DNA of 33,585 nucleotides. Origin: a virus. Made by a program: the position numbers and the translations under genes. The DNA is taken from positions 1 through 33,585 of IMG/VR virus record IMGVR_UViG_3300020469_000140. The stretch is one strand, 5' to 3'. This document shows, piece after piece, positions 9,980 to 19,193 of the stretch (within the stretch, counting starts at the first letter, position 1; every line of letters begins with the position of its first letter). The notes beneath the pieces were generated by a model, which saw only the letters and a program-made list of their open reading frames with translations, was not told the DNA's origin and did no database searches.

Positions 9980-10121
9980 AGACTTTTTAGCCTACGACCC
10001 ATTACAGAAATGTCATTACAGAATCGTTAATGGTAAGCGGCTATGGCTACAGCCAAGACCTCAAGAATACTATCAGCGCAAAAAAGAGCTACACTCAGGT
10101 CAGTTACCTCTCGCTTTATGA
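9951..10121 (+). CDS. Small basic protein overlapping both neighbours, 56 aa
   Basis: Found by hand: ATG 9951 to TGA 10119-10121. It overlaps the end of the preceding gene by 29 bases and the start of the ParB-like gene as ATGA (ATG 10118), which sets the true start of that gene. Sequence features: SYRTSRDFLAYDPLQKCHYR, then NGKRLWLQPRPQEYYQRKKE. It is basic and aromatic, a plausible nucleic-acid binder. No family recognised. Confidence 0.55.
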   Translation: MQGLSYRTSRDFLAYDPLQKCHYRIVNGKRLWLQPRPQEYYQRKKELHSGQLPLAL

Positions 10122-10735
10122 CTCAAACTCCAAATTATCCTGTAGTAGCACCAGAACATATAAATCAATCAAGGATTATAGATCTAACACTATACAAAGG
10201 TAATCCAAGAGTACATAGCGAAATCCAAATAGAAAGATTAGTTAATTCTCTAAAAGAATTTGGTTTTACTAATCCTGTGCTAGTTGATGACACAGGTAAT
10301 GTAATAGCTGGACATGGTCGTATTGCTGCTGCAAAAAAATTAGGGTTAGATGAAGTTCCTACAATAACTCTTTCTCATCTTTCAGAAGATCAGCGCAAAG
10401 CTTACATTATTGCTGATAATCAATTAGCACTAAATTCTAGCTGGGACGATGACTTATTAAAAATTGAATTAGAGAAACTTACAGAAAATGGTTTTGACCT
10501 ATCTGTTCTCGGCTGGGGTGATGATGTACCAACTTTTGCAGACGAACCTGATTATGGTTCTTTAGATGATTTTGACGACCCTACAGACGGACTTGCTAAT
10601 GATGTAATGAAAGCAATCCAAATAGAGTTTAGACCAGAAGATTATGAAGAGGCTAAAGAAGTAGTGGCAGAAGCTAGAAAAAAAGGAGTTTATGTGGGTC
10701 AGGAATTAGTAAATGCATTAAAAGCATTAAGCTAA
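10118..10735 (+). CDS. ParB-like nuclease-domain protein
   Basis: Start set at ATG 10118 (MTQTPNYPVV), coupled to the upstream TGA; a longer frame from 10043 would overlap the 56-aa gene. 205 aa. The ParB/Spo0J N-terminal fold is clear: LTLYKGNPRVHS, IERLVNSLKEFGF, NPVLVDDTGNVIAGHGRIAA with GHGR at 65-68, then KAYIIADNQLAL. This variant is usually the N-terminal domain of phage DNA adenine or cytosine methyltransferases. Here the methylase part is missing; the acidic C-terminus (PDYGSLDDFDDPTDG) precedes a short helical end. The next two genes encode an FkbM-type methyltransferase and a TET/JBP-like oxygenase. It may guide those enzymes to DNA, which is inference. Confidence 0.8.
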   Translation: MTQTPNYPVVAPEHINQSRIIDLTLYKGNPRVHSEIQIERLVNSLKEFGFTNPVLVDDTGNVIAGHGRIAAAKKLGLDEVPTITLSHLSEDQRKAYIIADNQLALNSSWDDDLLKIELEKLTENGFDLSVLGWGDDVPTFADEPDYGSLDDFDDPTDGLANDVMKAIQIEFRPEDYEEAKEVVAEARKKGVYVGQELVNALKALS

Positions 10736-11436
10736 TGAAGTTAACTAAAACTTCAATAGGAGGGATTGAGTTCTTCTATAGAGAAGGCTATTCCGATATT
10801 AAAACTTTCATAGAGGTCTTATCGAACCAATCGTACCTAAAAAAAGGTATGGAAGTTCTCAATAATGAAAGCTGGCTAGATTGTGGCGGTAATGTTGGTG
10901 CTTTCTCTTTACTTGCAGCTTCTAAAGGTGCATCTGTAATTACTTATGAGCCTGACCCTTTTAACTGCGAATTAATTGAAAAAAATGCTAAATTAAATGG
11001 CTTTCAAAATGCTATAAAGGTCAAACAAGCTGCCTTAGTGCATGATTTTAGGAAAGAAACAACACTATCTATAGCTCAAAATGGCAATGTATGGCGCAAT
11101 ACCATTATGAAAAAGAAGAGTAATAAAGCTATTAAAGTACCTTGTCTTAACTTTGACGAGCAAGCTGTAAAAGCAGATAATTGCAAGATGGATATAGAAG
11201 GTGCAGAGATACCAATTCTTACCCATACAAAAAGCGATTTTAATAAACTCGTATATGAGTGGAGTTTCGATATCGACCCAAGTTTGCCTAGGATTTGGAA
11301 AGTATTAGAAAAACAAAAACTAAGATATAAAGTAGAAGCACCATATAAAACAATTCACTACGAAGAAAGAGACGTAAATATGTGGGGCGAAAGCTGGTTC
11401 CCGCCATGCATAATGGTTTATTGTTTTAAAAAATGA
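10735..11436 (+). CDS. FkbM-family SAM-dependent methyltransferase
   Basis: 233 aa, starting in the ParB stop codon (TAATG). SAM-binding motif I is WLDCGGNVGAFSLLAA at 47-62, the acidic end of strand 2 is ITYEPDPFN at 69-77 (Glu72), and the FkbM signature CKMDIEGAEIP is at 150-160. FkbM enzymes normally O-methylate sugars or polyketides. Here it lies between a ParB-fold protein and a TET/JBP-like oxygenase, so its substrate may be a modified base rather than a cell-surface glycan. The second half (YEWSFDIDP, WGESWFPPCIM) has no known target-recognition domain. No DNA-methylase motif such as DPPY is present. Confidence 0.78.
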   Translation: MKLTKTSIGGIEFFYREGYSDIKTFIEVLSNQSYLKKGMEVLNNESWLDCGGNVGAFSLLAASKGASVITYEPDPFNCELIEKNAKLNGFQNAIKVKQAALVHDFRKETTLSIAQNGNVWRNTIMKKKSNKAIKVPCLNFDEQAVKADNCKMDIEGAEIPILTHTKSDFNKLVYEWSFDIDPSLPRIWKVLEKQKLRYKVEAPYKTIHYEERDVNMWGESWFPPCIMVYCFKK

Positions 11437-12218
11437 AACTACCTGAACTAATCCTGAAGCCTGTAACTTCTCCTTTGAAAATTGGAGATAGTGTAGGCGG
11501 TTATGAGCCGAATATTCACGAAGATTGCATTCTTATAGACCCAGATGGTATTCCTGTGGGTTTGTTTATAAAAACTTTGCCAGATGAGTTACAGAACCTT
11601 GTGAACATAGCTGATAGGGAAATTCATACGAAGCGTGTACCAAAGTCTGAAATGAAAAGGTCTAGCGGTCTACATAATAAAAAAGCTGAAGTATTGCAAT
11701 ATTCAACTATTTGCGGGTCATGTCCACCTAAACCACATATGCGAAGGCCATACGCTAGTAGATCTTCTGTTCATGCTGTAAAAAGTGCTAATACTTTTGT
11801 TAAAGCTATGTATGCGGCTGGAATAAAATCTTTTGAAATAGTTAAAAAATATATTCCTACTGTTGCTGATGCTCACTTAATGAAAATACGGCAAAGAATA
11901 CCTGAGAACTGGCGATTTGCTAATAATTTTAGTTCTACTATCTCTAATTGCAATATCTCTGCTCCTGTTCATCAAGACCACGCTAATGTAAAAGGTGCTA
12001 TAAATATGATAATTACTAAAAGACGAAATAGTAAGGGAGGTAACTTACACGTACCAGACTATAACGCTACATTTGACCAAACTGATAACTCATTATTGGT
12101 ATATCCAGCTTGGCGCAATAGGCATGGAGTTACACCAATTATTCCAACACATCAGGGAGGCTATAGAAACTCTCACGTTTGGTACGCTCTTGACTCATTC
12201 AACAAACTAGAAAAATAG
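11433..12218 (+). CDS. TET/JBP-like 2-oxoglutarate/Fe(II) dioxygenase
   Basis: 261 aa; starts four bases before the methyltransferase stop. The double-stranded beta-helix core is in the C-terminal half. APVHQDHANV at 177-186 gives the iron-binding His180-x-Asp182. GGNLHVPDY at 202-210 is the Gly-Gly-x-Leu strand. LLVYPAWRNRHGVTPI at 221-236 carries the distal iron ligand His231. RNSHVWYAL at 245-253 supplies Arg245 to bind 2-oxoglutarate. This order and the H-G-V and R-x-S-x-x-Y spacing match the TET/JBP family that oxidises 5-methyl pyrimidines in DNA. A prolyl-hydroxylase-type enzyme is the main alternative. The N-terminal 100 residues hold GIPVGLFIKTLPDEL, like the capping region of phage JBP homologues. 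All catalytic residues are present. Confidence 0.72.
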   Translation: MKLPELILKPVTSPLKIGDSVGGYEPNIHEDCILIDPDGIPVGLFIKTLPDELQNLVNIADREIHTKRVPKSEMKRSSGLHNKKAEVLQYSTICGSCPPKPHMRRPYASRSSVHAVKSANTFVKAMYAAGIKSFEIVKKYIPTVADAHLMKIRQRIPENWRFANNFSSTISNCNISAPVHQDHANVKGAINMIITKRRNSKGGNLHVPDYNATFDQTDNSLLVYPAWRNRHGVTPIIPTHQGGYRNSHVWYALDSFNKLEK

Positions 12219-12541
12219 TGGCAAAAAAAAAGGCGACTCAATCAGAAAAAGAATATAGAACTTACAGAATTGCTGGCCTATTATCTCGTGGTGTAACGCG
12301 GTCAGAAATCATAAAATATACCGCGGCTGAGTGGGGGGTGAAGCTTAGACAAACAGAACAATATATCCAAGATGCCCGTATAGTTCTCAAGAAAGATTTT
12401 GACATCGACAGAAGGCAGTTTACCGCGGATATGTTAAGCCAGCTTTCTACACTACAAAAAGAGGCTAGAAATACTGGTCAATTACACGTTGCTTTAGGGT
12501 GTATAAATGCAATGGCTAAGATTGCCCAAGTATCAACATGA
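12218..12541 (+). CDS. Terminase small subunit
   Basis: 107 aa; the GTG start overlaps the upstream TAG (TAGTG). The basic N-terminus (AKKKATQSEKEYR) leads into a helix-turn-helix (RIAGLLSRGVTRSEIIKYTA, GVKLRQTEQYIQDAR) and then a long helix for oligomerisation (FTADMLSQLSTLQKEARNTG). This is the usual small-terminase plan: DNA recognition followed by ring assembly. It ends with ATGA overlap into the large subunit. Confidence 0.8.
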   Translation: MAKKKATQSEKEYRTYRIAGLLSRGVTRSEIIKYTAAEWGVKLRQTEQYIQDARIVLKKDFDIDRRQFTADMLSQLSTLQKEARNTGQLHVALGCINAMAKIAQVST

Positions 12542-13881
12542 GTATTTTATCTAGAGAAGGATCAGTACTAGATGTAAGAGGTAGTAGCGCAATTTCTTTA
12601 GATGTTGATGAACTTTTAGAAAAAATAAGAAATGATCTCCATGAACCTCAAAGAGAATTTTTTGATAATAGCAATACTGAAATACTGGGATTGTCTGCTG
12701 GTTATGGTGCAGGGAAAACTAGAGCGCTATGTGCTGTTTGTGTGAAACTTGCAGCACTTAATGTAGGATTTACTGGTGCAGTTATGGAGCCAACTGGACC
12801 ATTAATTAGAGATATATGGCAAGCTGATTTTGAGCAGTTCTTGGAATATTACGAAATACCTTACACGTTTAGAGCTAGTCCGTTACCTGAGTACGTATTG
12901 CATCTTCCAAAAGGTGATACGAAAATACTATGTAGAAGTTTTGAAAACTGGTCTAGGATAATTGGTCTAAATCTGGCTTTTGTGTTAGCTGATGAAATCG
13001 ATACAGTAGCGCCATCTGTTTGTGATAGAGCCTTTCCTAAGATACTAGGTAGGCTCAGATCTGGAAATGTAAGACAGTTTTGTGCAGCAAGTACACCAGA
13101 GGGTTTCAGATGGATGTGGAATACCTTTGGTTCTGAAGCTGCTCAGGAAAGGGGCGACAGAAAACTAATACGCATGAGAACGCAAGATAACCCACATTTA
13201 CCAGATGACTTTATTGAACGTATGCAAGCAAACTATGACCCTAGTATGTTGCAAGCCTACCTCAACGGAGAGTTCGTCAATCTCACAACAGGGCAAGTTT
13301 ACGATAGGTTCAAAAGAGAAAATAATGTAATAACTGCAAAACCTGATATTGGACTTGACCCATTGCGTATAGGTTTAGATTTCAACATTGGAAACATGAA
13401 CGCTGTAATAGGCATTGTTCAAGATCAAAAATTGTTAATATTTGATGAGATTAGTGGCTCTCACGATACAGACTCTATTGCTCAAGAGATCAAATCCAGA
13501 TACCCTATGAACAAGATTTACATTTACCCAGATGCTAGTGGAGGCAACAGAAGTACTAATGCAAGTCAAACAGACATTCAAATTCTTGAAAGCTATGGGT
13601 TCAGCAATCAAAGCCCGCGTTCAAACCCGCCAGTTAGAGACAGGATCTCTGCCGTACAGGCTTTACTATGTAACGGCAAAGGGGAAAGCCGTTTTCAAAT
13701 CCATGCCAGTTGCAGAAAGCTAATTGAATCTATGGAACTTCAGTCATATACAGAAAAAGGAGAGCCAGATAAAGAGTCTGGTTATGACCATATGGCTGAC
13801 GCTGTAGGGTATTTAATATGGCGAGAGTTTAACCCATTATTTGCTCGTGCGGGCAGACCTACAGGGATTAGAATATATTAA
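12538..13881 (+). CDS. Terminase large subunit
   Basis: 447 aa. The ATPase domain has Walker A SAGYGAGKTR at 53-62 and Walker B LAFVLADEID at 146-155. CAASTPEGFRWMW at 182-194 is the coupling motif. The RNase H-like nuclease domain has GLDFNIGNMNAVIG at 279-292 (Asp281), IYPDASGG at 329-336 and YDHMADAVGYLIW at 416-428. This enzyme cuts concatemers and pumps DNA into the prohead through the portal. It lies directly after the small subunit and before the portal gene. The 63-aa frame inside it at 13532 is a shadow. Confidence 0.92.
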   Translation: MSILSREGSVLDVRGSSAISLDVDELLEKIRNDLHEPQREFFDNSNTEILGLSAGYGAGKTRALCAVCVKLAALNVGFTGAVMEPTGPLIRDIWQADFEQFLEYYEIPYTFRASPLPEYVLHLPKGDTKILCRSFENWSRIIGLNLAFVLADEIDTVAPSVCDRAFPKILGRLRSGNVRQFCAASTPEGFRWMWNTFGSEAAQERGDRKLIRMRTQDNPHLPDDFIERMQANYDPSMLQAYLNGEFVNLTTGQVYDRFKRENNVITAKPDIGLDPLRIGLDFNIGNMNAVIGIVQDQKLLIFDEISGSHDTDSIAQEIKSRYPMNKIYIYPDASGGNRSTNASQTDIQILESYGFSNQSPRSNPPVRDRISAVQALLCNGKGESRFQIHASCRKLIESMELQSYTEKGEPDKESGYDHMADAVGYLIWREFNPLFARAGRPTGIRIY

Positions 13882-18013: not shown

Positions 18014-18120
18014 TGGGTTATACATTTAAAGTTCAGACTTATGATGAGTCGAAACCAAAGGCTGAAAACTGTGAAGTAAAGCCAAAAACTTCTAAGAAAA
18101 AAACTAAAAACTTAAAATGA
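18013..18120 (+). CDS. Small basic protein, 35 aa
   Basis: GTG 18013 to TGA 18118-18120, coupled on both sides (TAGTG and ATGA). Reads GYTFKVQTYDESKPKAENCE followed by a Lys/Thr tail (KPKTSKKKTKNLK). The first half could be one beta-hairpin. No family recognised. Confidence 0.5.
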   Translation: MGYTFKVQTYDESKPKAENCEVKPKTSKKKTKNLK

Positions 18121-18347
18121 AAAAAGGTTCTAGAGTCAGTTGGGTTTACGCTGGTAAACGTACTTTTGGTAAAGTTGTTAGCGCAAATGCTGGAACTAGA
18201 GCCAAGATAAAAACAGCTAGTGGCGGACAAGTCACAAGAGTAGGAAGTAAAGATGACCCTATTGTTAAGATAATTTCTGACTCTACTGGCAATGCAGTAT
18301 TAAAGAAAAGATCTGAATTAAGAGCAGCACCTCCAAAGAAAAAGTGA
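18117..18347 (+). CDS. Small Tudor/SH3-like protein (HVA1/DUF2945-like)
   Basis: 76 aa. RVSWVYAGKRTFGKVVSANA and AKIKTASGGQVTRVGSKDDP have the strand pattern of the hypervirulence-associated (HVA1) Tudor-like domain, in which a G-x-x-V-x-W core binds peptides or nucleic acid. The end is basic (AAPPKKK). ATGA start overlap. Assignment is tentative because the domain is short. Confidence 0.55.
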   Translation: MKKGSRVSWVYAGKRTFGKVVSANAGTRAKIKTASGGQVTRVGSKDDPIVKIISDSTGNAVLKKRSELRAAPPKKK

Positions 18348-18500: not shown

Positions 18501-19193
18501 ATGCAAAAAGCTTTATTTGATTTAACAGAAAAAGATATTGACCTTAAAAAAGTTGATATAAATGAGTTTGTTGTTAAACCTGTAACAATTCAACAAGTAA
18601 AAAGTTTTGTTGAGAAATGGCACTATTCAAAAAATATAAATGGGCTAAATATTTCTCATGTTTTTGGACTTTTCTATAAAGAGTATTTAATAGGTGCAAT
18701 TATTTATGGCTCTTTGTCTATGGCTAATACATGGCAAAAGTATGGAACAGATGAAACAGAAGTAGTTGAACTTAAAAGGTTATGTTGTATTGATGCAACA
18801 AAGAAAAACACAGAGAGTTTTTTTATTGCAAAAACAATTAAATTTTTAAAAAAATATAGCAATTACAAAACTATTGTTTCTTACGCAGACCCGTATTTCA
18901 ATCATCAAGGGACAATTTATAAAGCTTCAAATTTTACACATGAAGGATTTACAGCAAAAAGCAAAGTAATTTTGTATAAAAATAAAATCTACCATGATAA
19001 AACAATTAGATCAGTTGATGACCAAAAAAGATTAAAGCCTTTTACCTATCAAATCAAAGAAGCTTTGCAGTTAGGACAAGCAACTTACATTAATAAGCCA
19101 CCTAAACACATATATTGCTATGAGATAAAAAGAAGAAACAATGATTTACCGCAAGCAAAAAGTCGAGAATATAATCAAATGAGCTTAGTTTGA
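18501..19193 (+). CDS. Mom-like GNAT-fold DNA modification protein
   Basis: 230 aa. VKSFVEKWHYSK at 33-44 (His41-Tyr42), VFGLFYKEYLIGAIIYG at 54-70, VVELKRLCCIDATKKNTESF at 88-107 and VSYADPYFNHQGTIYKASNF at 126-145 follow the order of Mu Mom-type proteins. In Mu, Mom turns adenine into N6-(carbamoylmethyl)adenine and protects DNA from restriction. The WHYS and S-x-A-D-P...H-x-G-x-I-Y-x-A-x-N-F boxes are the most telling. The gene is one base after the upstream stop, sits between small head genes, and is visibly more AT-rich than its neighbours (long A/T runs), as expected for an acquired cargo gene. A plain acetyltransferase is the alternative. Confidence 0.66.
   Translation: MQKALFDLTEKDIDLKKVDINEFVVKPVTIQQVKSFVEKWHYSKNINGLNISHVFGLFYKEYLIGAIIYGSLSMANTWQKYGTDETEVVELKRLCCIDATKKNTESFFIAKTIKFLKKYSNYKTIVSYADPYFNHQGTIYKASNFTHEGFTAKSKVILYKNKIYHDKTIRSVDDQKRLKPFTYQIKEALQLGQATYINKPPKHIYCYEIKRRNNDLPQAKSREYNQMSLV

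Follow-up and report, generated by a model that had tools for sequence, protein, structure and literature searches.

Upstream of the terminase genes of a viral contig of 33,585 bases (hereafter the window, meaning the whole stretch of DNA analyzed; 36% GC, without an exact terminal repeat) lie three coupled genes encoding a ParB-fold protein, an FkbM-family methyltransferase and a TET/JBP-family oxygenase (Table 1). An earlier note, made from the sequence alone, had described three coupled genes ahead of the terminase, and the open reading frames agree with that description, the run reaching the terminase large subunit by way of a 107-aa gene: ParB and FkbM meet at TAATG, FkbM and TET at ATGA, TET and the 107-aa gene at TAGTG, and the latter and the large subunit again at ATGA. 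The ParB start, ATG at 10118, shares an ATGA overlap with the stop codon of a 56-aa open reading frame and falls at the matching position in close relatives such as contig L016; an alternative upstream ATG at 10043 would give a 230-aa protein.

Table 1. Features of the cassette and of its surroundings in the window
Feature	Position	Strand	Evidence and assignment
ParB-fold protein, 205 aa	10118..10735	+	Pfam ParB_N, PHROG and Noc/ParB profile matches; putative DNA- or NTP-binding partner
FkbM-family (Methyltransf_21) SAM methyltransferase, 233 aa	10735..11436	+	Pfam, class I fold; predicted O-methyltransferase acting on the TET product
TET/JBP-family Fe(II)/2-oxoglutarate oxygenase, 261 aa	11433..12218	+	Residues, PDB profile, Foldseek; predicted 5-methylpyrimidine oxidation in DNA
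107-aa gene, terminase-small-subunit position	12218..12541	+	TAGTG coupling to cassette; phrog_34910, unknown function
Terminase large subunit, end of coupled run	12538..13881	+	Pfam Terminase_6N/6C
76-aa protein near the Mom gene	18117..18347		Hva1_TUDOR domain (E 1e-11)
Mom-family DNA-modification protein, accessory, outside cassette	18501..19193	+	Pfam Mom PF25680, 7.6e-36

Among cultured phages, the window is closest to the Prochlorococcus siphophages MED4-184/P-HS2 and MED4-117; three quarters of a 24-kb query align at approximately 82% DNA identity. Both MED4 phages carry the trio in the same order, with FkbM and TET proteins 94-95% identical to those of the window, under the public annotations ‘DNA methylase’, ‘hypothetical’ and ‘queuine tRNA-ribosyltransferase’. 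The trio genes are under strong purifying selection, with dN/dS values against MED4-184 of 0.055 for FkbM, 0.059 for TET and 0.098 for ParB, next to 0.103 for the terminase. Outside the cassette, the window further encodes a Mom-family protein that the earlier note had not listed and that occurs in 1 of 40 related records, namely the window alone and none of the 39 others; the phage may thus carry two independent DNA modifications.

Family assignments of the three proteins

The ParB-fold protein matches Pfam ParB_N (E=8e-7, 29.4 bits vs. a cut-off of 26.3) and a ParB-like PHROG (7e-49), and its family profile matches Noc/ParB structures, while the methyltransferase matches Pfam Methyltransf_21/FkbM (1.1e-11, 45.5 bits vs. 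a cut-off of 22.7); both families had been named beforehand, and both matches lie over the respective cut-offs. The ‘DNA methylase’ name of the ParB gene in MED4-184 and MED4-117 is rejected, as the protein is ParB only, and probably derives from ParB-methylase fusions (phrog_498).

For the 261-aa oxygenase the Pfam Tet_JBP match (E=8.5e-6, 25.5 bits) falls under the 34.9 cut-off, and the assignment was therefore checked by family profile, fold and residues. Tet_JBP matches the homolog from Pelagibacter phage HTVC112P with 103 bits, a profile built from 52 relatives matches human TET2 (1e-5), CMD1 and NgTet1 among PDB sequences, and the iron ligands H180-x-D182 and H231 (HxD...H), together with the 2-oxoglutarate-binding arginine R245, are invariant in those 52 relatives. 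In a Foldseek comparison of the AlphaFold model (pLDDT 93) with the PDB, ranks 1-26 are taken by the fungal CcTet, human TET2, CMD1 and NgTet1, followed by FTO and AlkB. Profile and fold rule out a prolyl-hydroxylase or AlkB-type oxygenase and uphold the TET/JBP identity, for which the earlier note had named a prolyl hydroxylase as the counter-case. The database name ‘queuine tRNA-ribosyltransferase’ is likewise a mislabel, with Pfam, PDB and fold evidence all pointing to TET; in records NC_020847 and NC_020857 it stands on the TET gene, the ParB gene being labeled DNA methylase, and mycobacteriophage records repeat this mislabel throughout (phrog_6059). A genome-wide search for cellular homologs of the window TET returned a single match, a phage-like locus with a glycosyltransferase in the slot between ParB and TET in a Flavobacteriaceae metagenome-assembled genome. 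This contig (L245, positions 289-2340) holds a ParB-like gene, a weak TAGT-like gene (TET-associated glycosyltransferase, PF20691) and TET ahead of a terminase; it probably comes from a phage and was binned together with bacterial contigs.

The FkbM protein shares with the wider Methyltransf_21 family not only the Pfam match but also the motif (KMDIEGAE in the window, K[ML]D[IC]EG[AS]E as a pattern) and a class I methyltransferase fold (model pLDDT 90), and its residues G51, G55, E72, D153, E155, G156 and E158 are invariant, with the SAM-binding motif present. The nearest solved folds are TYW2, TrmA and similar class I enzymes at TM ~0.5, and structure comparison returned no close match to any solved DNA methyltransferase, which counts against action on a DNA base. 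There is no cysteine conserved in all 40 FkbM sequences and no DPPY motif in the representatives checked, so the protein is unlike an amino- or C5-methyltransferase; on motifs (C5 catalytic Cys, [DNS]PP[YF]), a role as C5 or amino DNA methyltransferase is rejected. The window enzyme differs from the rest of its family in its proposed substrate, a DNA base, and in its phylogeny: TET-linked enzymes of both gene orders described below group in one phage clade (support 97) that excludes the other FkbM proteins from phages and bacteria, and separate recruitment of FkbM in the two orders is therefore unsupported.

Linkage of FkbM to TET and exchange of the slot gene

Scans of IMG/VR together with annotated phage loci yielded 138 non-redundant TET/FkbM combinations, of which 82 are arranged as ParB-FkbM-TET and 18 as ParB-TET-FkbM, nearly all with genes that overlap or lie within 10 bp of each other. 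The trio, which the earlier note had suggested looking for in other phage genomes, is accordingly found at ~100 non-redundant marine and freshwater viral loci, among them MED4-184, MED4-117 and HTVC112P, the last with the three families ordered ParB-TET-FkbM and its TET annotated ‘DnaJ/SNF2’. On contigs of sufficient length, every FkbM of the TET-linked clade adjoins a TET gene, and a wider FkbM scan found TET at 59 of 59 added loci (some from contigs already counted). No TET was found near the control FkbM genes at 56 more distant phage loci or at 30 bacterial loci; the former rule out TET linkage as a general trait of phage FkbM. Because the genes are under purifying selection and their order is kept in ~100 non-redundant loci, the trio is no chance array, and its reading as a conserved functional unit is supported.

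What the methyltransferase does within this unit is best approached through the slot that it occupies. In contigs L084, L089, L090 and L346-L356, TAGT sits between ParB and TET with the same overlaps, the ParB-TAGT-TET layout holding at 12 of the 12 loci listed, and in L044 and L060 nothing separates ParB from TET. These arrangements interleave on the TET tree, where the TAGT locus L084 pairs with the FkbM locus L057 (100/99), the empty-slot locus L060 with the FkbM locus L056 (100/100), and the empty-slot locus L044 with the window (98/85); the bootstrap of this tree stopped short of full convergence, making such pairings firmer than its deep branches. Among 44 records searched, TAGT is absent from all 30 trio records, the window included, and only L171 and L084 hold both TAGT and an FkbM, there of a sister type: this FkbM and TAGT exclude each other in close relatives.

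We propose that the slot exchange is the main argument for FkbM as the tailoring enzyme of the TET product, since it stands in place of enzymes that decorate the TET-made hydroxyl. That the oxygenase might create the hydroxyl on which FkbM acts had been put forward from the window alone, and with the slot swapped for TAGT in close relatives it has become the best reading, which we consider probable. The empty-slot relatives count against the overall model in that they make FkbM dispensable.

The slot also bears on the opposite sequence of events, in which FkbM, an unusual methyltransferase of DNA bases, would place a methyl group that TET would then oxidize. The ParB-FkbM-TET order of most loci and the presence of the RNA uracil-C5 methyltransferases TrmA and RumA among the nearest folds fit such a scheme, but it is highly improbable given the missing invariant cysteine and DPPY motif, the occurrence of TET without FkbM, and the replacement by a glycosyltransferase, which would be senseless if FkbM preceded TET in the pathway.

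The sister-type FkbM, found in phages that possess TAGT (L171, positions 1964-2590; L084, positions 326-964 on the minus strand), might have the TAGT-added sugar as its methylation target. In L290, L294, L295 and L303, a phage FkbM lies within ~2.5 kb of a TAGT-like gene, and no TET was found nearby. The best-known substrates of FkbM enzymes are small molecules and sugars. This background, together with the co-occurrence of sister or more distant FkbM proteins with TAGT in these six contigs, would suit a different target for the window enzyme as well, be it a protein, a small molecule or a sugar attached to the base, with TET associated only via a shared anti-defense operon. We regard this as unlikely: trio genomes are without TAGT and hence without any sugar-adding step found, wherever a contig allows a judgment this clade is always linked to TET, a linkage that other FkbM proteins lack, and the slot is exchanged with TAGT itself.

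Relation to described cassettes

A ParB gene and a TET/JBP gene before the terminase constitute a described DNA-modification cassette in actinophages (PMC9302106, PMC11955845), for which PMC9302106 cites Iyer et al. 2013, and the window shows this known layout, its ParB and TET genes adjoining a tailoring gene ahead of the terminase. The ParB-TET part is therefore already described, and the FkbM branch alone may be new; a full-text search, beyond whose reach lay Iyer 2013, Burke 2021 and Lee 2021, found no paper on FkbM with TET/JBP in phages.

Actinophages CaiB, Tonitrus, LilMcDreamy and JAMaL likewise have ParB followed by TET/JBP, mostly with overlapping starts, upstream of the terminase, and the actinophage TET is homologous to that of the window at ~25% identity. 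The tailoring genes that follow this pair encode ADDT (amino-acid:DNA transferase), aGPT-Pplase (a pyrophosphorylase) or kinases, whereas the window has FkbM; none of the known tailoring enzymes (TAGT, ADDT, aGPT-Pplase, kinase) occupies the window slot. In the base-J-like TET/JBP-TAGT route, represented by Arthrobacter phage Prairie and the marine contigs L084 and L346-L356, Prairie has ParB-TET before the terminase and a glycosyltransferase and a deacetylase elsewhere in its genome. The marine contigs share the ParB and TET genes, the slot and the overlaps with the window, but their slot gene encodes a GT-A glycosyltransferase, which would add a sugar where FkbM would add a methyl group. A ParB-domain protein is also frequent in the gene context of another cyanophage DNA-base pathway, the CmoX/CmoY carboxymethylcytosine route known from Synechococcus phage S-B43 (PMC12783734); this route starts, however, with a C5-carboxymethyltransferase, and PMC12783734 makes no mention of TET or FkbM.

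A proposed route to a methoxymethylated base

We propose that the trio functions as a cassette for post-replicative hypermodification of DNA. That it modifies DNA is very likely. TET-family enzymes are able to act on RNA in other systems, which would allow the cassette to act on RNA, or only to regulate host or phage genes; such a role is remote in view of the coupling to terminase genes in both the window and the actinophages, and of the ParB and TAGT partners, which point to DNA.

The identity of the base follows from what a TET enzyme would find to oxidize. TET/JBP enzymes require a 5-methylpyrimidine, and JBP uses thymine. The earlier note had seen neither a C5 nor a DPPY methylase in the window, and profile searches agree: the window, MED4-184, MED4-117 and HTVC112P all lack a match to C5-cytosine methyltransferases (PF00145), and the 9 records tested for an N4/N6 methylase (PF01555), the window included, gave none. 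In the 38 viral records covered, many of them fragments, no thymidylate-synthase-type pyrimidine hydroxymethylase (PF00303) is present, and PF00145 occurs in three contigs (L046, L052 and L140). Without PF00145 in the window and its cultured relatives, and without PF00303 in the 38 records, thymine is the 5-methylpyrimidine at hand, and we favor it, with some reserve, as the base modified.

The cytosine counterpart would have a host or phage C5-methyltransferase produce 5mC, TET convert it to 5hmC, and FkbM yield 5-methoxymethylcytosine. It retains some weight because many records are fragments and the three PF00145 contigs are trio contigs, and the structures closest to the TET model act on 5mC. 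We nevertheless hold it to be improbable, given the absence of PF00145 from the window and from MED4-184, MED4-117 and HTVC112P, and the annotation of related actinophage ParB-TET operons as thymine pathways (PMC11955845). The records corresponding to L046 and L052 (G003 and G004) contain a C5-cytosine methyltransferase in the trio contig, with a partial match in a third, G014, and the TET of the L046 and L052 phages could use 5-methylcytosine.

With thymine as the preferred substrate, TET/JBP would hydroxylate the 5-methyl group of the pyrimidine in phage DNA to give 5-hydroxymethyluracil, and the FkbM-clade enzyme would use SAM to O-methylate the new hydroxyl, giving 5-(methoxymethyl)uracil. 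ParB would bind DNA and/or NTP and, ahead of packaging, position the two enzymes on the phage DNA or license them there. The likely benefit would be escape from restriction or other DNA-sensing defense, and the methyl cap may also block host glycosylases or further oxidation. We put the probability of this full model, from thymine through 5hmU to 5-methoxymethyluracil with the aid of ParB and with its chemistry inferred, at roughly one half; for the more general statement, that a dedicated FkbM clade O-methylates a TET-made hydroxymethylpyrimidine in phage DNA to 5-methoxymethyluracil or -cytosine, we judge the odds to be about even. Since P-HS2 and HTVC112P are cultured phages, the model is directly testable.

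If the model is true, phages of Prochlorococcus and Pelagibacter, two of the most abundant bacteria in the ocean, cap an oxidized base with a methyl ether, a small and chemically inert modification that would lengthen the list of known DNA bases. Methoxymethylated bases would then add a new class to the natural modifications of DNA, one that is widespread among phages of the sea and of fresh water. The swap of a methyltransferase for a glycosyltransferase behind the same TET enzyme shows the system to be modular, and the FkbM-clade protein is a possible enzyme with which users of TET could protect hydroxymethyl bases.
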